From: Arenicola marina
Lineage: Eukaryota; Annelida; Polychaeta; Arenicolidae
Assembly (NCBI GenBank): GCA_964019135.1
Contig: OZ025257.1
Location: 461,501 to 525,500 of the forward strand
Reading direction: 5' to 3'
Length of the DNA stretch: 64,000 nucleotides
Shown here: in pieces, positions 20,726-37,968 of the stretch
Layout of the letters: every line of letters begins with the position of its first letter
How positions within the stretch are numbered: position 1 is the first letter of the stretch
Made by a program: the position numbers and the translations under genes
Notes under the pieces: model-generated
Databases searched by the model: none
What the model saw: only the letters and a program-made list of their open reading frames with translations
What the model was told of the DNA's origin: nothing

Positions 20726-21205
20726 ATGGGTGTCGGGAACAAGGATGCGAGAGGTGTAGACTCGATCTGCATATTCCTGTGGAGTGTCGTCTTGGGAAGT
20801 TTGCTGTCTGATTGGTCTGCAGCTTGTGGCTAGCATACACAATGAACCCCCGACCACGCCAGCCCACAGCAGCCTTAACTCTTATTTGCATTCCGTTGCC
20901 GTCTGCCAGCTGCGGAATTAATCTCCATCGACAGAGGGCACTGTGATGCCTCCGCCGGCAATCTGAGAACCGGGTAGCGAGATTTAGTGTCTCATATTGC
21001 AGAGTCCAGGAAACGATTGAATAACGAGACGTTGACTTCTCGGATCACTTACACGCGTTGGGAGTCCAAGACTCCGCGAGAGTTCGAGGAGCGCCGTGCG
21101 ATTTGACAGCCAAGGTCAATCAATAATATCGGACATGGGCAGCATCCCTCAGTTATTGTGCCGTCTGGGTAGAAAAACGACAGCAAACATGTTCTAGGCT
21201 GTCCC
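20726..21205. other. spacer, no gene seen
   Basis: Single-copy sequence of mixed composition between the GGAAGCTGG array and the 60-bp repeat. Its last part (from 21153) contains the end of the minus-strand hexapeptide frame. Confidence 0.45.
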
Positions 21206-24200
21206 GAGTCGACGTGTCCTTGGCGGGCGATAATAAGGAACAAAACTGTCCTGCCTGAGCCGCCTGAATAAGCGTATCCTTGGCGGGCGATAATAAGGAA
21301 CAAAACTGTCCCGCCTGAGCCGCCTGAGTAAGCGTATACTTGGCGGGCGATAATACGGAACAAAACGAGTGGGAATCGTGTTTATGGCTTTTCTGGACTG
21401 TCACGCCATGAAACAGCCTCACGTCATGAAACAGTCTCACGTCATGAAACAGCCTAACACCATGGAACAGTCGCACGTCATGGAACAGCCTCACGTCATG
21501 GAACAGTCTCACGCCATGAAACAGCCTCACGTCATGGAACAGTCTCACGTCATGAAACAGCCTAACATCATGGAACAGTCGCACGTCATGGAACAGCCTC
21601 ACGTCATGGAACAGCCTCACGTCATGAAACAGCCTCACGTCATGGAACAGTCTCACGTCATGAAACAGCCTAACATCATGGAACAGTCGCACGTCATGGA
21701 ACAGCCTCACGTCATGGAACAGTCTCACGCCATGAAACAGCCTCACGTCATGAAACAGCCTAACATCATGGAACAGTCGCACGTCATGGAACAGCCTCAC
21801 GTCATGGAACAGCCTCACGTCATGGAACAGTCTCACGCCATGAAACAGCCTCACGTCATGAAACAGCCTAACACCATGGAACAATCGCACGTCATGGAAC
21901 AGCCTCACGTCATGGAACAGTCTCACGTTATGGAACGGCCTCACGTCATGAAACAGTCTCACGCCATGAAACAGCCTCACGTCATGAAACAGTCGCACGT
22001 CATGGAACAGTCGCACGTCATGGAACAGCCGCACGTCATGGAACAGCCTCACGTCATGAAACAGCCTCACGTCATGAAACAGTCTCACGTTATGAAACAG
22101 CCTAACATCATGGAACAGTCGCACGTCATGGAACAGCCTCACGTCATGAAACAGCCTTACGTCATGAAACAGTCGCACATCATGGAACAGTCGCACATCA
22201 TGGAACAGCCTCACGTCATGAAACAGTCGCACATCATGGAACAGTCGCACGTCATGGAACAGCCGCACGTCATGGAACAGCCTCACGTCATGAAACAGCC
22301 TCACGTCATGAAACAGTCGCACGTCATGGAACAGTCGCACGTCATGGAACAGCCTCACGTCATGAAACAGTCGCACATCATGGAACAGTCGCACGTCATG
22401 GAACAGCCGCACGTCATGGAACAGCCTCACGTCATGAAACAGCCTTACGTCATGAAACAGTCGCACGTCATGGAACAGCCTCACGTCATGAAACAGCCTC
22501 ACGTCATGAAACAGTCGCACATCATGGAACAGTCGCACGTCATGGAACAGCCGCACGTCATGGAACAGCCTCACGTCATGAAACACCCTCACGTCATGAA
22601 ACAGTCTCACGTTATGAAACAGCCTAACATCATGGAACAGTCGCACGTCATGGAACAGCCTCACGTCATGAAACAGCCTTACGTCATGAAACAGTCTCAC
22701 GTCATGAAACAGCCTCACGTCATGGAACAGTCGCACGTCATGGAACAGCATCACGTCATGAAACAGCCTCACGTCATGAAACAGTCTCACGTCATGGAAC
22801 AGTCTCACGTCATGGAACAGCCTCACGTCATGAAACAGTCTCACGTCATGGAACAGTCTCACGTCATGGAACAGCCTCACGTCATGAAACAGTCTCACGT
22901 CATGGAACAGTCTCACGTCATGGAACAGCCTCACGTCATGAAACAGCCTCACGTCATGAAACAGTCTCACGTCATGGAACAGTCTCACGTCATGGAACAG
23001 CCTCACGTCATGAAACAGTCTCACGTCATGGAACAGTCTCACGTCATGGAACAGCCTCACGTCATGAAACAGTCTCACGTTATGGAACAGCCTCACGTCA
23101 TGGAACAGCCTCACGTCATGAAACAGTCTCACGTCATGGAACAGCCTCACGTCATGAAACAGCCTCACGTCATGGAACAGTCTCACGCCATGAAACAGCC
23201 TCACGTCATGAAACAGCCTCACGTCATGAAACAGCCTAACATCATGGAACAGTCGCACGTTATGGAACAGCCTCACGTCATGGAACAGCCTCACGTCATG
23301 AAACAGTCTCACGTCATGGAACAGTCTCACGCCATGAAACAGCCTCACGTCATGAAACAGCCTCACGTCATGAAACAGCCTAACATCATGGAACAATCGC
23401 ACGTCATGGAACAGCCTCACGTCATGGAACAGTCTCACGTTATGGAACGGCCTCACGTCATGAAACAGCCTCACGTCATGGAACAGTCGCACGTCATGAA
23501 ACAGCCTTACGTCATGAAACAGTCTCACGTCATGAAACAGCCTGACATCATGGAACAGTCGCACGTCATGGAACAGCCGCACGTCATGGAACAGCCTCAC
23601 GTCATGAAACAGTCTCACGTCATGGAACAGCCTCACGTCATGAAACAGCCTCACGTCATGGAACAGTCTCACGCCATGAAACAGCCTCACGTCATGAAAC
23701 AGCCTCACGTCATGAAACAGCCTGACATCATGGAACAGTCGCACGTCATGGAACAGCCGCACGTCATGGAACAGCCTCACGTCATGAAACAGTCTCACGT
23801 CATGGAACAGCCTCACGTCATGAAACAGCCTCACGTCATGGAACAGTCTCACGCCATGAAATAGCCTCACGTCATGAAACAGCCTCACGTCATGAAACAG
23901 CCTCACGTCATGAAACAGTCTCACGTTATTAAACAGCCTAACATCATGGAACAGTCGCACGTCATGGAACAGCCTCACGTCATGAAACAGCCTTACGTCA
24001 TGAAACAGTCTCACGTCATGAAACAGCCTCACGTCATGGAACAGTCGCACGTCATGGAACAGCATCACGTCATGAAACAGCCTCACGCCATGGAACAGTC
24101 TCACGCCATGAAACAGCCGCACGTCATGGAACAGCCTCACGTCATGAAACAGCCTCACGTCATGAAACAGTCTCACGTTATTAAACAGCCTAACATCATG

Positions 24201-26450
24201 GAACAGTCGCACGTCATGGAACAGCCTCACGTCATGAAACAGCCTTACGTCATGAAACAGTCTCACGTCATGAAACAGCCTCACGTCATGGAACAGTCGC
24301 ACGTCATGGAACAGCATCACGTCATGAAACAGCCTCACGCCATGAAACAGTCTCACGTTATGGAACAGCCTCACGTCATGAAACAGCCTCACGTCATGAA
24401 ACAGTCTCACGTCATGGAACAGTCTCACGTCATGGAACAGCATCACGTCATGAAACAGCCTCACGTCATGAAACAGTCTCACGTCATGGAACAGTCTCAC
24501 GTCATGGAACAGCCTCACGTCATGAAACAGCCTCACGTCATGAAACAGCCTCACGTCATGAAACAGTCTCACGTCATGAAACAGCCTCACGTCATGGAAC
24601 AGTCTCACGTCATGGAACAGCCTCACGTCATGGAACAGCCTCACGTCATGAAACAGTCTCACGTCATGAAACAGTCTCACGTCATGGAACAGCTTCACGT
24701 CATGGAACGGCCTCACGTCATGAAACAGCCTCACGTCATGAAACAGTCTCACGTCATGGAACAGTCTCACGTCATGGAACAGCCTCACGTCATGAAACAG
24801 CCTCACGTCATGAAACAGCCTCACGTCATGAAACAGTCTCACGTCATGAAACAGCCTAACATCATGGAACAGTCGCACGTCATGGAACAGCCTCACGTCA
24901 TGAAACAGCCTCACGTCATGAAACAGCCTCACGTCATGAAACAGTCTCACGTCATGAAACAGCCTAACATCATGGAACAGTCGCACGTCATGGAACAGTC
25001 TCACGTCATGAAACAGCCTTACGTCATGAAACAGTCTCACGTCATGAAACAGCCTAACATCATGGAACAGTCGCACGTCATGGAACAGTCGCAAGTCATG
25101 GAACAGCCTAACGTCATAAAACAGCCTCACGTCATAAAACAGTCTCACGCCATGAAACAGCCTAACATCATGGAACAGTCGCACGTCATGGAACAGCCGC
25201 ACGTCATGGAACAGCCTCACGCCATGAAACAGTCTCACGTTATGGAACAGCCTCACGTCATGAAACAGCCTCACGTCATGAAACAGTCTCACGTCATGGA
25301 ACAGTCTCACGTCATGGAACAGCCTCACGTCATGAAACAGCCTCACGTCATAAAACAGTCTCACGTCATGGAACAGTCTCACGTCATGGAACAGCCTCAC
25401 GTCATGAAACAGTCTCACGTCATGAAACAGTCTCACGTCATGAAACAGCCTAACATCATGGAACAGTCGCACGTCATGGAACAACCTAACGTCATGAAAC
25501 AGCCTCACGTCATGAAACAGTCTCACGTCATGAAACAGCCTCACGTCATGAAACAGCCTAACATTATGGAACAGTCGCACGTCATGGAACAACCTCACGT
25601 CATTGAACAGCCTCACGTCATGAAACAGGATCACGTCATGAAACAGTCTCACGTCATGAAACAGCCTAACATTATGGAACAGTCGCACGTCATTAAACAG
25701 CCTCACGTCATGAAACAGGATCACGTCATGAAACAGTCGCACGTCATGAAACAGTCTCACGTCATGAAACAGCCTCACGTCATGAAACAGCCTCACGTCA
25801 TGGAACAGTCTCACGTCATAAAACAGCCTCACGTCATGGAACAGTCGCACGTCATGGAACAGCCTCACGTCATGAAACAGCCTCACGTCATGAAACAGCG
25901 TCACGTCATGGAACAGCCTAACATCATGGAACAGTCGCACGTCATGGAACAGCCTCACGTCATGAAACAGCCTTACGTCATGAAACAGTCGCACGTTATG
26001 GAACAGCCTCACGTCATGAAACAGTCTCACGTCATGAAACAGCCTCACGTCATGAAACAGTCTCACGTCATGAAACAGCCTCACGTCATGGAACAGCCTC
26101 ACGTCATGAAACAGCTTCACGTCATGAAACAGTCTCACGTCATGAAACAGCCTCACGTCATGGAACAGTCGCACGTCATGGAACAGCCTCACGTCATGAA
26201 ACAGTCTCACGTCATGAAACAGCCTAACATCATGGAACAGTCGCACGTCATGGAACAGCCTCACGCCATGGAACAGCCTCACGTCATGGAACAGCCTCAC
26301 GTCATGGAACAGTCGCACGTCATGGAACAGTCTCACGTCATGAAACAGCCTTACGTCATGAAACAGTCTCACGTCATGAAACAGCCTCACGTCATGAAAC
26401 AGCCTCACGTCATGAAACAGCTTCACGTCATGAAACAGTCGCACAGTCAT
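21153..26450 (-). CDS. candidate giant hexapeptide-repeat protein (RLFHDV)n, 1765 residues
   Basis: A single uninterrupted minus-strand frame starts at an ATG (26450) and ends at TAA just past the 60-bp repeat. An in-frame TAA lies ten codons upstream of the ATG, so the frame is bounded. Residues 4 to about 1685 are some 280 tandem copies of RLFHDV, followed by 2.7 copies of a 20-residue repeat (FCSLLSPAKDT...AAQAGQ) and a short tail with two adjacent Cys. There is no signal peptide or membrane segment. The notable point is codon-level variation. Arg appears as AGG, AGA, CGA and CGG, Phe as TTT/TTC, Asp as GAC/GAT, Leu as CTG/TTG/CTA, and Val with all four third bases. Replacements (HGV, HNV, FYD, KLF) occur in a minority of units. 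The plus-strand frame instead changes K/E, P/S and H/N/Y/D throughout and has one stop. I recognise no family. It may be a real repetitive protein or exon, or satellite DNA that happens to vary this way. Confidence 0.42.
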   Translation of the reverse strand: MTVRLFHDVKLFHDVRLFHDVRLFHDVRLFHDVRLFHDVRLFHDVRLFHDVRLFHDVRLFHGVRLFHDVRLFHDVRLFHDVRLFHDVRLFHDVRLFHDVRLFHDVRLFHDVKLFHDVRLFHDVRLFHDVRLFHDVRLFHDVRLFHDVRLFHNVRLFHDVRLFHDVRLFHDVRLFHDVRLFHDVTLFHDVRLFHDVRLFHDVRLFHDVRLFYDVRLFHDVRLFHDVRLFHDVRLFHDVRLFHDVILFHDVRLFNDVRLFHNVRLFHDVRLFHDVILFHDVRLFNDVRLFHDVRLFHNVRLFHDVRLFHDVRLFHDVRLFHDVRLFHDVRLFHDVRLFHDVRLFHDVRLFHDVRLFHDVRLFHDVRLFYDVRLFHDVRLFHDVRLFHDVRLFHDVRLFHDVRLFHNVRLFHGVRLFHDVRLFHDVRLFHDVRLFHGVRLFYDVRLFYDVRLFHDLRLFHDVRLFHDVRLFHDVRLFHDVRLFHDVRLFHDVRLFHDVRLFHDVRLFHDVRLFHDVRLFHDVRLFHDVRLFHDVRLFHDVRLFHDVRLFHDVRLFHDVRLFHDVRLFHDVRLFHDVRLFHDVRPFHDVKLFHDVRLFHDVRLFHDVRLFHDVRLFHDVRLFHDVRLFHDVRLFHDVRLFHDVRLFHDVRLFHDVRLFHDVRLFHDVRLFHDVMLFHDVRLFHDVRLFHDVRLFHDVRLFHNVRLFHGVRLFHDVMLFHDVRLFHDVRLFHDVRLFHDVRLFHDVRLFHDVRLFHDVRLFNNVRLFHDVRLFHDVRLFHDVRLFHGVRLFHGVRLFHDVMLFHDVRLFHDVRLFHDVRLFHDVRLFHDVRLFHDVRLFHDVRLFNNVRLFHDVRLFHDVRLFHDVRLFHGVRLFHDVRLFHDVRLFHDVRLFHDVRLFHDVRLFHDVRLFHDVRLFHDVRLFHDVRLFHGVRLFHDVRLFHDVRLFHDVRLFHDVRLFHDVRLFHDVRLFHDVRLFHDVRLFHDVRLFHDVRLFHDVRLFHDVRPFHNVRLFHDVRLFHDVRLFHDVRLFHDVRLFHDVRLFHGVRLFHDVRLFHDVRLFHDVRLFHNVRLFHDVRLFHDVRLFHDVRLFHGVRLFHDVRLFHDVRLFHDVRLFHDVRLFHDVRLFHNVRLFHDVRLFHDVRLFHDVRLFHDVRLFHDVRLFHDVRLFHDVRLFHDVRLFHDVRLFHDVRLFHDVRLFHDVRLFHDVRLFHDVRLFHDVRLFHDVRLFHDVRLFHDVMLFHDVRLFHDVRLFHDVRLFHDVRLFHDVRLFHDVRLFHDVRLFHNVRLFHDVRVFHDVRLFHDVRLFHDVRLFHDVRLFHDVRLFHDVRLFHDVRLFHDVRLFHDVRLFHDVRLFHDVRLFHDVRLFHDVRLFHDVRLFHDVRLFHDVRLFHDVRLFHDVRLFHDVRLFHDVRLFHDVRLFHDVRLFHDVRLFHDVRLFHDVRLFHDVRLFHDVRLFHNVRLFHDVRLFHDVRLFHDVRLFHDVRLFHDVRLFHDVRLFHGVRLFHDVRPFHNVRLFHDVRLFHDVRLFHGVRLFHDVRLFHGVRLFHDVRLFHDVRLFHDVRLFHDVRLFHDVRLFHGVRLFHDVRLFHDVRLFHDVRLFHDVRLFHDVRLFHDVRLFHDVRLFHDVRLFHDVRLFHDVRLFHDVRLFHGVRLFHDVRLFHDVRLFHGVRLFHDVRLFHDVRLFHGVTVQKSHKHDSHSFCSVLSPAKYTLTQAAQAGQFCSLLSPAKDTLIQAAQAGQFCSLLSPAKDTSTRDSLEHVCCRFSTQTAQ
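21206..21367. repeat. 60-bp tandem repeat, 2.7 copies
   Basis: TTGGCGGGCGATAATA recurs at 21220, 21280 and 21340, exactly 60 bp apart. On the minus strand it stays in frame with the adjacent 18-bp array and gives a 20-residue repeat containing FCSLLSPAKDT and AAQAGQ. It is therefore included in the candidate coding region. Confidence 0.92.
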
Positions 26451-26455
26451 ACAGC
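21399..26455. repeat. 18-bp minisatellite (CACGTCATGAAACAGCCT), about 281 copies
   Basis: The unit CACGTCATGAAACAGCCT recurs without length change over 5 kb. Common alternatives are CATGGAACAG, CAGTCT, CAGTCG and AACATCATG. There are essentially no indels, unlike most other arrays here, so the frame is held throughout. Most units contain ACGTCA, that is TGACGT on the minus strand, a CRE-like half site. The plus strand is also open as MKQPHV/MEQSHV, except for one TAG at 23862-23864. Degenerate copies continue to about 26487. Confidence 0.97.
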
Positions 26456-26509
26456 AGTGTGACGTCGTGAAACAGCCTTACGTTTGGTAAAGACCTGCGC
26501 GCGTCGCCA

Positions 26510-26755
26510 CTTGTACTAACAGATATTACCCCTGTAACATACCCTCACCTCACCCCTTCTACTAACAGATGATATTCCTCTACCATACCCTCACCTCACC
26601 CCTTGTACTAACAGATGATATTCCTATACCATACCCTCACCTCACCCCTTGTATTAACAGATGATATTCCTATACCATACCCTCACCTCACCCCTTGCAT
26701 TAGCATATGTTACCCCTGTAACATACCCTCACCTCACCCCTTGTATTAACTGGTA
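26510..26755. repeat. 46-bp tandem repeat, about 5 copies
   Basis: Units contain TGTACTAACAGAT, ATTCCTATACC and CATACCCTCACCTCACCCC, repeating at about 46-bp steps. Non-coding. Confidence 0.88.
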
Positions 26756-26934
26756 TCTCTTGCATCACACTGCCGACCACCCTGCCAAGAGATAACTGTG
26801 AGCCGCGAAGGAAGCAAACACTGCTACAAGACAAGTGAGGTACAACCGGTTGTTTCCCTGTGGAGTGTGCCTCTCTCTGGGTGGTCAAGGCGCCATGGCA
26901 TTATTCTCCCTGTCCCTATATTCATGTAGCACTG

Positions 26935-26947
26935 CATTAACACTACT
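26935..26947. repeat. left target-site duplication of the SINE
   Basis: CATTAACACTACT, identical to the copy at 27211-27223. Confidence 0.9.
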
Positions 26948-27210
26948 GGGGCCGGCGCGACAGCTCAGTGGGTTAGAGCGCTCGCATTGAGTGCTCTGGT
27001 CACCTGAGAGCCTAACGGCACGTGAGTCGGTGGTTCGAGCCCTGCTGTGGCCATATCTGTCTGGTCGCAGGATAAAGATCCCATGTCTTTCTTCGTAAAG
27101 AGTAGGGGGTTACCCCCGGGGACATGGCTCCACTCTCCCTTCCTTCTCCCATTGACGCGATATAACCAAAAGTGGTTAAAGCGTCCTGAATAACCAACCA
27201 ACCAACCAAC
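26948..27210 (+). mobile_element. tRNA-derived SINE with 13-bp TSD
   Basis: The head carries a Pol III A-box-like CAGCTCAGTGG (26961-26971) and a B box GGTTCGAGCCC (27032-27042). About 140 bp of non-tRNA body follows, ending in (CCAA)n. A perfect 13-bp target-site duplication, CATTAACACTACT, flanks it at 26935-26947 and 27211-27223. A perfect TSD suggests a fairly recent insertion by LINE machinery. Pol III internal promoters drive such elements. The A-to-B spacing is longer than in a plain tRNA, so this is not a functional tRNA gene. The family name is not assigned. Confidence 0.88.
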
Positions 27211-27223
27211 CATTAACACTACT
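27211..27223. repeat. right target-site duplication of the SINE
   Basis: CATTAACACTACT, directly after the CCAA tail. Confidence 0.9.
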
Positions 27224-27269
27224 AAACCGTCAGGCTCAGGGCCTTCAATGAAGTCACAAGGAAAAATAT

Positions 27270-27425
27270 TTGCTCTTCCTAAAAGAGAAATAGTTGTATA
27301 TTTCTCCCTAAAAGAGAAATAGTTGTATATTTCTCCCTAAAAGAGAAATAGTTGTATATTTCTCCCTAAAAGATAAATACTTGTTCTTCGTCAAGGAGAA
27401 ATAATTCTTCTTAAAAGCGAATTAG
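27270..27425. repeat. 29-bp AT-rich tandem repeat, about 4-5 copies
   Basis: CTAAAAGAGAAATAGTTGTA recurs at 29-bp steps (27279, 27308 and onward), then decays into diverged copies. Non-coding. Confidence 0.88.
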
Positions 27426-27488
27426 TTGTTATTCAGGGTCTCTCACCAGGAAAAGATATGTATCACCTGGTATCCTTGACAACGTTAA

Positions 27489-29504
27489 TTACCACTGCGA
27501 ATGGGATACTGAAAGTGGAAACAGGAAGTGCATTGTGACGTCACTCACCGACACTTTGCGAGCGCCTTTGGCTTTGCCGTTACCATGGGGAGCGCTGGAG
27601 TTGGTGAGTTGGAGGGTGACGAGGGGAATGCTGGCGCAGAGGTTGGCCTGTCGCATAGCCTGGGCCAGGATGTGACCTCTCACCGAGATCCCCTCATCCC
27701 CCTCCCCAGGCCGGGCCAGCCACCCTCGCCCCGCCCTCACCACCACCGGTTCAGACGGGCAGGGGGCCGAGCACCCCGGCGTCGGCACATCCCAGGGGTG
27801 CGTATCCTGAGAAGCTGCATGCTGCGAGGATATATCCCGGGAGGATTTAACCTGGGAGGTTGTATCCTGGGAGGTTGTATCCTGGGAGGTTGTATCCTGG
27901 GAGGTTGTATCCTGGGAGGTAGTATCCTGGGAGGTTGTATCCTGGGGGGTTTTATCCTGGGAGGTTGTATCCTGGGAGGTTGTATCCTGGGAGGTTGTAT
28001 CCTGGGAGGTTGTATCCTGGGAGGTAGTATCCTGTGACGCTATTTCCTGTAAGGCTATATCCTGGGAGGCTATATCCCGTGACGTCACACGCCTGGAGCT
28101 CATATCTTGGCAGGTCATATCTTTAGAGATCACATTATTAAAGGTCACATCCTTAGAGGTCGCATCAATTGAGGTCACACAGTTGATGCCATTACTTTCA
28201 TTAGGATGTGATATCCCACCAGTGACCCCACCAGTGACACCACCAGTGACCCCATCAGTGACCCCATCAGTGACCCCATCAGTGACCCCATCAGTGACCC
28301 CATCAGTGACCCCATCAGTGACCCCATCAGTGACCCCACCGGAGACACCACCAGTGACCCCATCAGTGACCCCACCGGAGACAGAAGAAGGTGGGTAGTA
28401 ATCCGGCAGGTGGCGCGGCATTAGCAGTAATCCAGATTGGAGAGCGAGTTGATTCAGGGGTCCGAGAGTAGCAGGCCCCTGTGACTGGCCTCCGGTCCCC
28501 TTGGGCGGCTGCTGCTGCTTCAGGCCCTGGCGGTCACTGTGATCGCTGTAGTGGAGACTGTGGTCGAGACTGTGGTCGAGACTGTGAGGGTTGTGGATAT
28601 TGTGGCCTAGGGTGTTGTTGTGGCCCGGGCTGTGGGTGTTATGGCCTTGGATGGTGTTGTGGCCGTGGATGGTGTTGTGGCCGTGGCTGTGGGTGTTGTT
28701 GTGGCCGTGGCTGTGGCTGTTGTGGCTGTGGGTGTTGTGGCCCTGGCTGTGGCTGCGGCTGCCACTGCGTAAGAAGAGCGCGCGGAGGCCTTGCAATGCT
28801 GTGCAGTGGGCGGGCGGGCTGGCAGTGGGTGGCGGGCCGGCTCCGGACCGCTGCCAGGAGCCTGACACCCCTCGGCCTGGTACAGGGCTGACCGACCGTT
28901 GGGGCCGGAACTCCACTCTCCTGACAGACTGGGCACCTGTGGAGTGGTCAGTGCCACAGGGCGGGGTCACGTCAGGGGCAGGGTAGGGGGAGGGGTTTCC
29001 GCTGCCGCCAGAGGGCTGGTTCCCACCCACAGTCACAGCGTCGCTATCTCTCTTCTGGTTACCACGCTGTGTGTGAAGCTCAGCGCCACCTAGAGCATGT
29101 AGAGTGAGACTTTGGCTGACGCCTGACTCAGCACTATTCCCCGGGAGTGCGGCCACCACTCCCTCACCCCCAAGGCGTGCGGTGTCCGGCATGACACGCC
29201 CTCGCGCGCGGCCCCCTCCCCCAGTGGCAGCCAGCGGGGTGGTGGGTCGCAGTGACTGGCCGGGTTGGGGTGTCCCACGGGGAGAGGGTTGGGGTGTCCC
29301 ACGTGGAGAGGGTTGGGGTGTCCCGGATAGGGAAGGTTGGGGTGTCCCGTGACCCCCCAGACGCGGGACCAGGGCTGGGCAGGGGTGTGAGGGCTGGGGG
29401 CATGGGGAGGGGTTCGGGCAGCCCAGCCCCGGGCAATCCCGGCCTGTGGGGACCCCCCTGAGGCGTGGCCCGCACTCCTGCCACAAACCGTCTTCACTCT
29501 CCAT
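27489..29504 (-). CDS. hypothetical low-complexity protein or exon, 671 residues
   Basis: The minus-strand frame runs from ATG (29504) to TAA (27489). Its N-terminal part is Pro/Gly-rich, with four GTPQPSPR-like octads (24-bp DNA repeat at 29262-29352). A His/Asn-rich tract of SHGHN and IHGHN type follows (about 28550-28760), then GVTD tetrads (12-bp repeat, 28211-28385), then SQDTT pentads (15-bp repeat, 27801-28080). The non-repetitive C-terminal region contains RGHILAQAMRQANLCASIPL and a basic patch GKAKGARK. Stretches with no repeat, about 250 codons at 28760-29500 and 110 at 27489-27830, also stay open, which argues against pure chance. I recognise no domain. TAG ACA immediately precedes the ATG, so the true 5' end could instead be a splice acceptor. 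The region could be a large exon, a pseudogene or a chance frame. Confidence 0.45.
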   Translation of the reverse strand: MESEDGLWQECGPRLRGVPTGRDCPGLGCPNPSPCPQPSHPCPALVPRLGGHGTPQPSLSGTPQPSPRGTPQPSPRGTPQPGQSLRPTTPLAATGGGGRARGRVMPDTARLGGEGVVAALPGNSAESGVSQSLTLHALGGAELHTQRGNQKRDSDAVTVGGNQPSGGSGNPSPYPAPDVTPPCGTDHSTGAQSVRRVEFRPQRSVSPVPGRGVSGSWQRSGAGPPPTASPPAHCTALQGLRALFLRSGSRSHSQGHNTHSHNSHSHGHNNTHSHGHNTIHGHNTIQGHNTHSPGHNNTLGHNIHNPHSLDHSLDHSLHYSDHSDRQGLKQQQPPKGTGGQSQGPATLGPLNQLALQSGLLLMPRHLPDYYPPSSVSGGVTDGVTGGVSGGVTDGVTDGVTDGVTDGVTDGVTDGVTDGVTGGVTGGVTGGISHPNESNGINCVTSIDATSKDVTFNNVISKDMTCQDMSSRRVTSRDIASQDIALQEIASQDTTSQDTTSQDTTSQDTTSQDTTSQDKTPQDTTSQDTTSQDTTSQDTTSQDTTSQDTTSQVKSSRDISSQHAASQDTHPWDVPTPGCSAPCPSEPVVVRAGRGWLARPGEGDEGISVRGHILAQAMRQANLCASIPLVTLQLTNSSAPHGNGKAKGARKVSVSDVTMHFLFPLSVSHSQW
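27801..28080. repeat. 15-bp tandem repeat (GGTTGTATCCTGGGA), about 15 copies
   Basis: Homogeneous copies at 27858-28030 with diverged copies on both sides. In the minus-strand frame they encode SQDTT. The other frames are open too, so the repeat alone is not evidence of coding. Confidence 0.92.
28211..28385. repeat. 12-bp tandem repeat (CCATCAGTGACC), about 14 copies
   Basis: CCATCAGTGACC units with CCACCAGTGACC and CCGGAGACACCA variants. They encode GVTD on the minus strand inside the 671-residue frame. Confidence 0.92.
28550..28760. repeat. GTGTTGTGGCC / CGTGGCTGTGG short repeats
   Basis: Degenerate 6-, 12- and 18-bp steps of TGTGGCCGTGG and GGGTGTTGTGG. On the minus strand they give the His/Asn-rich SHGHN tract. 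Confidence 0.8.
29262..29352. repeat. 24-bp tandem repeat, about 3.8 copies
   Basis: GGTTGGGGTGTCCCACG units repeat at 24 bp and encode GTPQPSPR-like octads on the minus strand. Confidence 0.85.
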
Positions 29505-29507
29505 TGT

Positions 29508-31435: not shown

Positions 31436-31592
31436 ATCATGGGTGCTGCCAGTGAGTTAACGTTATGGGCACCGGGAACGAACCACGACGAGGATGTCAT
31501 TCAGCATAATGCTCCACCTGTTCCGTCATGGGAGGCGCGTTCATTGGCTGACTGGTGCCACGTCTCCAGGCCGCGAGAGGCAGAGGGGAACG

Positions 31593-34500
31593 GGGTGTTG
31601 TGAAGGGCTTTGTGGGGTAACGGGGTATTGTGAAGGTCTTTGTGGGGTAACGGGGTATTGTGAAGGTCTTTGTGGGGTAACGGGGTATTGTGAAGGTCTT
31701 TGTCAGGTAACGGGGTATTGTGAAGGTCTGTAAGGTAACGGGGTATTGTGAAGGTCTTTGTCAGGTAGCGGGGTATTGTGAAGGTCTTTGTGGGGTAACG
31801 GGGTACTGTGAAGGTCTTTGTGAGGTAACGGGATATTGTGAAGGTCTTTGTCAGGTAACGGGGTATTGTGAAGGTCTTTGTGGGGTAACGGGGTATTGTG
31901 AAGGTCTTTGTGAGGTAACGGGGTATTGTGAAGGTCTTTGTGAGGTAACGGGGTATTGTGAAGGTCTTTGTGAGGTAACGGGGTATTGTGAAGGTCTTTG
32001 TGAGGTAACGGGGTATTGTGAAGGTCTTTGTGAGGTAACGGGGTATTGTGAAGGTCTTTGTCAGGTAACGGGGTATTGTGAAGGTCTTTGTTGGGTAACG
32101 GGGTATTGTGAAGGTCTTTGTGAGGTAACGGGGTATTGTGAACGGGGTATTGTGAAGGTCTTTGTGAGGTAACGGGGTATTGTGAAGGTCTTTGTTGGGT
32201 AACGGGGTATTGTGAAGGTCTTTGTGAGGTAACGGGGTATTGTGAAGGTCTTTGTCAGGTAACGGGGTATTGTGAAGGTATTTGTCAGGTAACGGGGTAT
32301 TGTGAAGGTCTTTGTGAGGTAACGGGGTATTGTGAAGGTCTTTGTCAGGTAACGGGGTATTGTGAAGTTCTTTATGGGGTAACGGGGTATTGTAAAAGTC
32401 TTTGTGAGGTAACGGGGTACTGTGAAGGTCTTTGTGAGATAACGGGGTATTGTGAAGGTCTTTGTGGGCTAACGGGGTATTGTGAAGGTCTTTGTGGGGT
32501 AACGGGGTATTGTGAAGGTCTTTGTCAGGTAACGGGGTATTGTGAAGGTCTGTAAGGTAACGGGGTATTGTGAAGGTCTTTGTCAGGTAACGGGGTATTG
32601 TGAAGGTCTTTATGGGGTAACGGGGTATTGTAAAAGTCTTTGTGAGGTAACGGGGTACTGTGAAGGTCTTTGTGAGATAACGGGGTATTGTGAAGGTCTT
32701 TGTGGGCTAACGGGGTATTGTGAAGGTCTTTGTGGGGTAACGGGGTATTGTAAAGATCTTTGTCAGGTAACGGGGTATTGTGAAGGTCTTTGTCAGGTAA
32801 CGGGGTGTTGTGAAGGTCTTTGTGGGGAACGGAGTATTGTGAAGGTCTTTGTGAGGTAACGGGGTATTGTGAAGGTCTTTGTGGGGTAACGGGGTATTGT
32901 GAAGGTCTTTGTGAGGTAACGGGGTATTGTGAAGGTCTTTGTGAGGTAACGGGGTATTGTGAAGGTTTGTGATGTAATGGTATATTGGGAAGGTCTGTGA
33001 GGTAACGGGGTATTGTGAAGGTTTTTGTGAGGTAACGGGGTATTGTGAAGGTCTTTGTGGGGTAACGGGGTATTGTGAAGGTCTTTGTCAGGTAACGGGT
33101 TATTGTGAAGGTCTTTGTCAGGTAACGGGGTGTTGTGAAGGTCTTTGTCAGGTAACGGGGTATTGTGAAGGTCTTTATGAGGTAACGGGGTATTGTGAAG
33201 GTTTTTGTCAGGTAACGGGGTATTGTGAAGGTCTTTGTCAGGTAACGGGGTATTGTGAAGGTCTTTGTGAGGTAACGGGGTATTGTGAAGGTCTTTGTCA
33301 GGTAACGGGGTGTTGTGAAGGTTTTGTGAGGTAACGGGGTATTGTGAAGGTCTTTGTGAGGTAACGGGTATTGTGAAGGTCTTTGTGAGGTAACGGGATA
33401 TTGTGAAGGTTTTTGTGAGGTAACGCGGTATTGTGAAGGTCTATGTGGGGAAACGGGATATTGTGAAGGTCTTTGCCACGTCTCCAGGCCGCGAGAGGCA
33501 GAGGGGAACGGGGTATTGTGAAGGTCTTTGTGAGGTAACGCGGTATTGTGAAGGTCTTTGTGGGGTAACGGGGTATTGTGAAGGTCTTTGTGGGGTAACG
33601 GGGTATTGTGAAGGTCTTTGTGGGGTAACGGGGTATTGTGAAGGTCTTTGTGGGGTAACGGGGTATTGTGAAGGTCTTTGTCAGGTAACGGGTTATTGTG
33701 AAGGTCTTTGTTAGGTAACGGGGTGTTGTGAAGGTCTTTGTCAGGTAACGGGGTATTGTGAAGGTCTTTATGAGGTAACGGGGTATTGTGAAGGTTTTTG
33801 TCAGGTAACGGGGTATTGTGAAGGTCTTTGTGAGGTAACGGGTATTGTGAAGGTCTTTGTCAGGTAACGGGGTATTGTGAAGGTCTTTGTGAGGTAACGG
33901 GGATTGTGAAGGTCTTTGTCAGGTAACGGGGTATTGTGAAGGTCTTTGTAAGGTAACGGGGTATTGTGAAGGTCTTTGTGAGGTAACGGGGTATTGTGAA
34001 GGTCTTTGTGGGGTAACGGGTATTGTGAAGGTCTTTGTAAGGTAACGGGGTATTGTGAAGGTCTTTGTGAGGTAACGGGGTATTGTGAAGGTCTTTGTGG
34101 GGTAACGGGGTATTGTGAAGGTCTTTGTAAGGTAACGGGGTATTGTGAAGGTCTTTGTGGGGTAACGGGGTATTGTGAAGGTCTTTGTAAGGTAACGGGG
34201 TATTGTGAAGGTCTTTGTGAGGTAACGGGGTATTGTAAAGGTCTTTGTGAGGTAACGGGGTATTGTGAAGGTCTTTGTCAGGTAACGGGGTATTGTGAAG
34301 GTCTTTGTGAGGTAACGGGGTATTGTGAAGGTCTTTGTGAGGTAACGGGGTACTGTGAAGGTCTTTGTGAGATAACGGGGTATTGTGAAGGTCTTTGTGG
34401 GCTAACGGGGTATTGTGAAGGTCTTTGTGGGGTAACGGGGTATTGTGAAGGTCTTTGTCAGGTAACGGGGTATTGTGAAGGTCTGTAAGGTAACGGGGTA

Positions 34501-37500
34501 TTGTGAAGGTCTTTGTCAGGTAACGGGGTATTGTGAAGGTCTTTATGGGGTAACGGGGTATTGTAAAAGTCTTTGTGAGGTAACGGGGTACTGTGAAGGT
34601 CTTTGTGAGATAACGGGGTATTGTGAAGGTCTTTGTGGGCTAACGGGGTATTGTGAAGGTCTTTGTGGGGTAACGGGGTATTGTGAAGGTCTTTGTCAGG
34701 TAACGGGGTATTGTGAAGGTCTTTGTCAGGTAACGGGGTGTTGTGAAGGTCTTTGTGGGGAACGGAGTATTGTGAAGGTCTTTGTGAGGTAACGGGGTAT
34801 TGTGAAGGTTTTGTGGGGTAACGGGGTATTGTGAAGGTCTTTGTGAGGTAACGGGGTATTGTGGAGGTCTTTGTGAGGTAACGGGGTATTGTGAAGGTTT
34901 GTGATGTAATGGTATATTGGGAAGGTCTGTGAGGTAACGGGGTATTGTGAAGGTTTTTGTGAGGTAACGGGGTATTGTGAAGGTCTTTGTGGGGTAACGG
35001 GGTATTGTGAAGGTCTTTGTCAGGTAACGGGTTATTGTGAAGGTCTTTGTCAGGTAACGGGGTGTTGTGAAGGTCTTTGTCAGGTAACGGGGTATTGTGA
35101 AGGTCTTTATGAGGTAACGGGGTATTGTGAAGGTTTTTGTCAGGTAACGGGGTATTGTGAAGGTCTTTGTCAGGTAACGGGGTATTGTGAAGGTCTTTGT
35201 GAGGTAACGGGGTATTGTGAAGGTCTTTGTCAGGTAACGGGGTGTTGTGAAGGTTTTGTGAGGTAACGGGGTATTGTGAAGGTCTTTGTGAGGTAACGAG
35301 TATTGTGAAGGTCTTTGTGAGGTAACGGGATATTGTGAAGGTTTTTGTGAGGTAACGCGGTATTGTGAAGGTCTATGTGGGGAAACGGGATATTGTGAAG
35401 GTCTTTGCCACGTCTCCAGGCCGCGAGAGGCAGAGGGGAACGGGGTATTGTGAAGGTCTTTGTGAGGTAACGCGGTATTGTGAAGGTCTTTGTGGGGTAA
35501 CGGGGTATTGTGAAGGTCTTTGTGGGGTAACGGGGTATTGTGAAGGTCTTTGTGGGGTAACGGGGTATTGTGAAGGTCTTTGTGGGGTAACGGGGTATTG
35601 TGAAGGTCTTTGTCAGGTAACGGGTTATTGTGAAGGTCTTTGTTAGGTAACGGGGTGTTGTGAAGGTTTTTGTCAGGTAACGGGGTATTGTGAAGGTCTT
35701 TATGAGGTAACGGGGTATTGTGAAGGTTTTTGTCAGGTAACGGGGTATTGTGAAGGTCTTTGTGAGGTAACGGGTATTGTGAAGGTCTTTGTCAGGTAAC
35801 GGGGTATTGTGAAGGTCTTTGTGAGGTAACGGGGATTGTGAAGGTCTTTGTCAGGTAACGGGGTATTGTGAAGGTCTTTGTAAGGTAACGGGGTATTGTG
35901 AAGGTCTTTGTGAGGTAACGGGGTATTGTGAAGGTCTTTGTGGGGTAACGGGGTATTGTGAAGGTCTTTGTAAGGTAACGGGGTATTGTGAAGGTCTTTG
36001 TGAGGTAACGGGGTATTGTGAAGGTCTTTGTGGGGTAACGGGGTATTGTGAAGGTCTTTGTAAGGTAACGGGGTATTGTGAAGGTCTTTGTGGGGTAACG
36101 GGGTATTGTGAAGGTCTTTGTAAGGTAACGGGGTATTGTGAAGGTCTTTGTGAGGTAACGGGGTATTGTAAAGGTCTTTGTGAGGTAACGGGGTATTGTG
36201 AAGGTCTTTGTCAGGTAACGGGGTATTGTGAAGGTCTTTGTGAGGTAACGGGGTATTGTGAAGGTCTTTGTGAGGTAACGGGGTATTGTGAAGGTCTTTG
36301 TGGGGTAACGGGGTATTGTGAAGGTCTTTGTAAGGTAACGGGGTATTGTGAAGGTCTTTGTGAGGTAACGGGGTATTGCGAAGGTCTTTGTAAGGTAACG
36401 GGGTATTGTGAAGGTCTTTGTGAGGTAACGGGGTATTGTGAAGGTCTTTGTCAGGTAACGGGGTATTGTGAAGGTCTTTGTGGGGTAACGGGGTATTGTG
36501 AAGGTCTTTGTAAGGTAACGGGGTATTGTGAAGGTCTTTGTGAGGTAACGGGGTATTGTGAAGGTCTTTGTGGGGTAACGGGGTATTGTGAAGGTCTTTG
36601 TAAGGTAACGGGGTATTGTGAAGGTCTTTGTGGGGTAACGGGGTATTGTGAAGGTCTTTGTAAGGTAACGGGGTATTGTGAAGGTCTTTGTGAGGTAACG
36701 GGGTATTGTAAAGGTCTTTGTGAGGTAACGGGGTATTGTGAAGGTCTTTGTCAGGTAACGGGGTATTGTGAAGGTCTTTGTCAGGTAACGGGGTATTGTG
36801 AAGGTCTTTGTGAGGTAACGGGGTATTGTGAAGGTCTTTGTGGGGTAACGGGGTATTGTGAAGGTCTTTGTAAGGTAACGGGGTATTGTGAAGGTCTTTG
36901 TGAGGTAACGGGGTATTGCGAAGGTCTTTGTAAGGTAACGGGGTATTGTGAAGGTCTTTGTGAGGTAACGGGGTATTGTGAAGGTCTTTGTCAGGTAACG
37001 GGGTATTGTGAAGGTCTTTGTGGGGTAACGGGGTAATGTGAAGGTCTTTGTAAGGTAACGGGGTATTGTGAAGGTCTTTGTGGGATAACGGGATATTGTA
37101 AAGGTCTGTGAGGTAACGGGGTATTGTGAAGGTCTTTGTCAGGTAACGGGGTATTGTGAAGGTCTTTGTAAGGTAACGGGGTATTGTGAAGGTCTTTGTG
37201 AGGTAACGGGATATTGTGAAGGTCTTTGTGAGGTAACGGGGTATTGTGAAGGTCTTTGTGAGGTAACGGTGTATTGTGAAGGTCTTTGTGAGGTAACGGG
37301 GTATTGTGAAGGTCTTTGTGAGGTAACGGGATATTGTGAAGGTCTTTGTGGGGTAACGGGGTATTGTGAAGGTCTTTGTGAGGTAACGGGGTATTGTGAA
37401 GGTCTTTGTGAGGTAACGGGGTATTGTGAAGGTCTTTGTGAGGTAACGGGGTATTGTGAAGGTCTTTGTGAGGTAACGGGGTATTGTGAAGGTATTTGTG

Positions 37501-37550
37501 AGGTAACGGGGTATTGTGAAGGTCTTTGTCAGGTAACGGGGTATTGTGAA
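31593..37550. repeat. 30-bp minisatellite (GGGTATTGTGAAGGTCTTTG), about 198 copies
   Basis: GGGGTATTGTGAAGGTCTTTG plus a variable dinucleotide and GGTAAC gives the 30-bp unit. Variation centres on the base pair after CTTTGT (GA, GG, CA, AA, TT). Indels break the frames often, so the plus frame (YCEGLCEVTG) appears only in pieces. A block of about 1932 bp is duplicated: 32542-33714 matches 34475-35646. A 540-bp block near 36170-36920 is also repeated. A 39-bp piece of left-flank sequence (from 31557) reappears inside the array at 33475 and 35407. Confidence 0.97.
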
Positions 37551-37968
37551 GAGGGTGGGGCGGCCTATGACAGAGGGTAGGGTGGCCTATGGCAGAGGGT
37601 AGGGTGGCCTATGGCATAGGGCAGGGCGGCCTATGACAGAGGGTGGGGCGGCCAATGGCAGAGGGTGGGGCGGCCTATGACAGAGGGTAGGGTGGCCTAT
37701 GGCAGAGGGTAGGGTGGCCTATGGCAGAGGGCAGGGCGGCCTATGACAGAGGGTGGGGCGGCCTATGGCAGAGGGTGGGGCGGCCTCTGACAGAGAGTGG
37801 GGCGGCCTATGGCAGAGGGTGGGGCGGCCTATGGCAGAGGGTGGGGTGGCCTATGGCAGAAGGTAGGGCGGCCTATGGCAGAGGGTTTAGCGGGCCTATG
37901 ACAGAGGGTTTGGCGCCCTATGGCAGAGGGTGGGGCGGCCTATGGCAGATGGTTTGGCGGCTGAAAAG
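37551..37968. repeat. 22-bp minisatellite (GGGGCGGCCTATGGCAGAGG), about 19 copies
   Basis: GGGGCGGCCTATGGCAGAGG units with GACAG/GGCAG and GGTAGGGTGG variants. The array starts directly where the 30-bp array stops, with no spacer. Confidence 0.94.

Follow-up and report, generated by a model that had tools for sequence, protein, structure and literature searches.

The 18-bp tandem array that reads as RLFHDV hexads on the minus strand is probably a non-coding minisatellite, situated in a minisatellite-packed region near a chromosome end of Arenicola marina. The window, i.e. the whole stretch of 64,000 nucleotides analysed in this study, corresponds to C10:461501-525500 of a genome of 867 Mb in 762 contigs. 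(CTAACC)n repeats are present at C10:2501-5000, and the chromosome end is about 0.46 Mb from the window. Minisatellites fill most of the 64 kb, as indicated by 86 TRF rows with many different periods. Like non-coding minisatellites (VNTRs), the array has an 18-bp tandem unit, a length of 5 kb, interspersed unit variants, many neighbours of unrelated unit or period, and a location near a chromosome end. Unlike them, its variation is unusually concentrated at positions that are silent in one frame. The array and the features around it are listed in Table 1.

Table 1. The RLFHDV array, its open frames, and the adjoining repeats (window positions)
Feature	Position	Strand	Description
Minisatellite	21402..26441		280 units x 18 bp, plus-strand consensus CACGTCATGAAACAGCCT, 0 internal indels
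Decayed array edge	26442..26483		19-bp degenerate stretch (26442-26460), then a shifted unit; TRF array end at 26483
60-bp repeat	21213..21366		2.6 copies; neighbours the array and is read within the tail of the minus frame
46-bp repeat	26510..26750		5.2 copies; directly upstream on the minus strand; period not 3n
Stop-to-stop open frame	21153..26477	-	1774 codons (stop counted in the coordinates); (RLFHDV)n and an 82-codon tail
Only in-frame ATG upstream of the array	26448..26450	-	Context TGCTGTATGAC, weak
Single stop interrupting the plus frame (HVMKQP)n	23862..23864	+	TAG

Within the window (1-64000), arrays of period 7 to 156 bp adjoin one another almost without gaps, and the GC skew flips strongly from array to array. 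A tRNA scan of the window found none.

The in-register units (21402-26441) comprise 42 distinct sequences; they are arranged head to tail, homogenised, and of a length within the range of about 10-100 bp by which minisatellites are recognised. The unit-walking program used for the cross-array comparison counted 279 of the 280 units. The preliminary description of about 280 units without a frame break holds for 21402-26441. It does not hold beyond 26441, where the edge unit (26461-26478), identical at 16 of 18 positions, is displaced in register by 1 bp. The last base of this unit is overlapped by the upstream stop that closes the frame (minus TAA, 26480-26478). The frame therefore does not pass through the whole array, its outermost recognisable unit being off-frame, which counts against a coding repeat, though this unit could lie outside an exon.

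Columns 2, 7, 8, 11, and 12 are invariant across the 280 units, as might be seen if the unit were kept for a role at the DNA or RNA level, e.g. as an array of protein-binding sites, with the silent pattern as a by-product. The unit contains CGTCA/TGACG, which we take to be a CREB/ATF-like half site. However, CGTCA is unprotected (27 units vary at column 4, 17 at column 5, and 13 at column 6), the invariant columns are few and scattered, and an Rfam scan of the window returned no family at the gathering score. Such a role appears extremely improbable.

The minus open frame is almost coextensive with the array, and the end of the frame is the end of the array. A long open frame is to be expected automatically, since the unit length is divisible by 3 and three of the six frames of the consensus are, by chance, free of stops. 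Exact RLFHDV is encoded by 231 of the 280 units. As described earlier, the single plus-strand TAG is silent on the minus strand (column 13, C to T; CTG to CTA). Long frames are also found in other arrays of the same genome (1667, 895, 859, 2326, and 1771 codons). The intact frame through 280 units would fit a coding repeat, and the complete lack of indels places the array toward the low end for this genome. No register break was found in 20 of 49 compared arrays of period 3n, including the RLFHDV array, a proportion that is biased upward because similarity or long frames guided the choice of the places that supplied 37 of the 49. Among arrays of at least 1 kb in places not chosen in this way, one of eight of period 3n and three of 13 of other periods were without a break; therefore, arrays of period 3n keep their register no better than others. 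Overall, neither the openness of the array nor its absence of indels is unusual for this genome.

Many arrays of 18-bp and 54-bp units on C9, C4, C6, C13, and C17 (including L034-L046) have open frames of 800-3262 codons. One 54-bp array (C6:14703000-14712000) has a divergence of 0.8% per site and no break.

The silent bias that had drawn attention to the array is present. There are 424 variant cells and 20 distinct variants in the 280 units, and 369 of the cells (87%) are silent in minus frame 0, in agreement with the earlier statement that the commonest unit differences are synonymous on the minus strand. In the other five frames, 4, 4, 7, 17, and 43% of the cells are silent. The six-frame count against a shuffled null, which had been proposed as a check, gave p = 0.0086 for cells in minus frame 0 (columns permuted within the same base, best of six frames), and reruns gave 0.0088, 0.009, 0.0097, and 0.007 (range 0.007-0.010). 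This bias would be accounted for by a genuine coding repeat, i.e. a minus-strand exon or intronless gene in which about 280 RLFHDV hexads form a beta-solenoid and purifying selection lets silent changes spread. On the whole of the evidence, we consider this explanation unlikely.

Collapsing shared duplications, after which an equal ratio of silent to replacement changes was to refute the suggestion of the preliminary description, tells mostly against that suggestion. When each distinct variant is counted once, nine of 20 are silent (p 0.24, best of six frames). All five variants that exceed 17 units are silent (2.2 expected); among the remaining 15, four are silent against 5.3 expected, and among the rare variants (nine units or fewer) four of 13 are silent against 4.8 expected, so that no silent excess of the kind a coding repeat would produce is seen there. 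Silent variants are commoner than replacement variants (Mann-Whitney p 0.023), which speaks against a non-coding array. Linkage among the five common variants, which occur in a second unit type, is partial, with phi values of 0.80 for 1A-4A, 0.64 for 4A-18G, 0.53 for 1A-18G, and 0.43 for 16T-18G, and of only 0.09 for 10G-16T. The silent excess thus stems from five common, partly linked variants. At column 1, the fourfold site of Val, all three silent alternatives are present, which likewise speaks against a non-coding array. Silent sites vary very unevenly: column 7 (His third base) varies in none of the 280 units and column 13 (Leu third base) in one, which argues against a coding repeat. The spread of replacements does so as well, the commonest being D to G in 17 units and D to N in 13.

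The array was compared with others of the same genome. From 55 arrays given, the comparison set retained the 49 of period 3n in which 15 or more cells vary. The six that were left out had fewer than 15 variant cells; in three of these, the silent fraction is 0.86 on 14 cells, 0.89 on 9 cells, and 1.0 on 4 cells, with p 1.0. The 30-bp array at 31589-37551 was included in the set (p 0.62). Among the 49, the RLFHDV array, which had itself been singled out for its pattern before testing, has the highest silent fraction (0.87; next 0.79 and 0.62) and the second-lowest p. A 54-bp array, L040 (220-2511; C6:4178220-4180511), ranks first with the lowest p (0.002-0.003). The third-lowest (0.02) belongs to L043, which reaches a silent fraction of 0.79 and cannot hold one frame because it contains 15 offsets of 14 or 16 bp. 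Altogether, two of the 49 arrays have p <= 0.01 (0.5 expected) and four have p <= 0.025 (1.2 expected). In L040, the frame VGISSV is open for 859 codons, and three other frames are long too.

Of the neutral simulations matched for divergence and variant number, only three of 1808 reached 0.87 silent (one of 910 with the RLFHDV unit and two of 898 with a random unit), a rarity that speaks for a coding repeat. In another neutral run, in which 75 of 1050 simulations were divergence-matched, none of the 1050 reached this value. Therefore, chance does not comfortably account for a single array considered by itself, while it is acceptable for the best of dozens; this look-elsewhere effect across the 49 arrays weighs against the coding reading.

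Gene features of quality were not found in the scanned flanks. In a simple consensus look at the minus strand, none of the 12 AGs in 26600-26401 has more than 9 of 18 upstream pyrimidines as a splice acceptor, and no AATAAA or ATTAAA is present at 21200-19601. The next best genome match of the 82-residue tail has an E value of 0.006, and it has no better relative in the genome. The start or acceptor, the poly-A signal, and the unique flanks with relatives by which a coding gene is recognised were accordingly not seen in this look. A bacterial promoter scan of 26400-27500, which is uninformative for this genome, gave matches at shuffle level only. Mucins, involucrin, and silk genes are among the known coding repeats. 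With coding minisatellites such as the Prdm9 zinc-finger array (PMC3890296), the RLFHDV array shares a period of 3n and a frame open through all units. However, the genes that carry coding minisatellites are expressed, have relatives, and flank the array with unique coding sequence. The suggestion that the array may be a giant repetitive protein or exon retains a real silent bias on the minus strand, and is opposed for the most part by the collapsed variants, by the absence of gene features in the scanned flanks, and by a frame-broken array that is 0.79 silent.

At the protein level, the Pfam family PF20854 (LED_rpt) matches the minus frame with 59 bits on 120 residues and 124-127 bits on 300 residues (cut-off 59 bits), compared with 28.3 bits on the plus frame and at most 28.9 bits on nine shuffled hexads, so that residue order matters. 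The family was matched in none of 14 control genomes. In this genome, however, it fires at many minisatellites (at least 170 matches), several of which have repeated in-frame stops. The match was rejected as evidence of a protein family and is not diagnostic, because arrays with 5-7 in-frame stops also exceed the cut-off. A match of Phage_spike (70 bits) to a frame of a 45-bp array in the window was taken as a similar artefact.

When 240 residues of the minus frame were modelled by AlphaFold2 without an alignment, a beta-solenoid was predicted (pLDDT 70.9, pTM 0.58), while the plus frame gave no structure (pLDDT 37.2, pTM 0.10). The prediction for the minus frame alone is consistent with a coding repeat; however, in the four lower-ranked models the mean falls from 61.9 to 22.1, and a hexad in which polar residues alternate with non-polar ones would presumably model as a solenoid whether or not it is made. 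In a Foldseek search of the PDB, two of 308 matches had E <= 0.001; they are generic beta-helices, with TM <= 0.45 among the 50 matches listed. A DNA search for related arrays found six weak places elsewhere in the genome, and tblastn of the genome gave at least 145 rows (150 of 6126 candidates scored). The best-matching array among those listed, on C17, has 65% identity over 106 residues and two TGA. The matching arrays were rejected as homologues and taken as convergent because those inspected differ in their 18-bp unit or in period. It is unlikely that the hexads make up a giant beta-solenoid protein of a kind not yet described, captured from a minisatellite and now selected for its hexad.

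A non-coding minisatellite may have arisen as follows. Entire 18-bp units would have been copied, one at a time or several together, and this copying, by conversion, slippage, or unequal exchange, would have both enlarged and homogenised the array. The two main unit types, CACGTCATGAAACAGCCT and AACATCATGGAACAGTCG, which are presumably old, differ at five columns that are silent, apparently by chance, in one frame. Most of the variation would then reflect the mixing and copying of these two types, so that one chance event would be counted hundreds of times. We infer that the minus frame is not translated.

Upstream of the array, a 672-codon open frame on the minus strand (27489-29507) runs across several different short repeats. 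Ten of the 12 TRF consensus lengths inside it are multiples of 3, compared with 32 of 74 elsewhere in the window. It has matches in the genome only for its SQDTT-type repeat part (residues 410-601). No Pfam family exceeded its cut-off on this frame, and silent bias is absent in its two main arrays. Judged by anatomy, the RLFHDV frame is the weaker exon candidate of the two. The 672-codon frame is unrelated to it but shares its strand, and because most of the repeats inside have a period of 3n, it also lends something to a coding reading of the RLFHDV array. A short minus frame at 26965-27336, ending ATAGLEPPTHVPLGSQVTRALNASALTH, has no Pfam match and gives the impression of being a fragment of some interspersed element.

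Where most differences between the units of a tandem array come from a few linked variants, an intact frame with a silent bias can be only weakly indicative of coding. The combination of permuted columns, collapsed variants, and control arrays from the same genome is a test that is applicable to other arrays. If the RLFHDV frame were coding after all, it would represent a very large and simple repeat protein, caught soon after its birth from a minisatellite.
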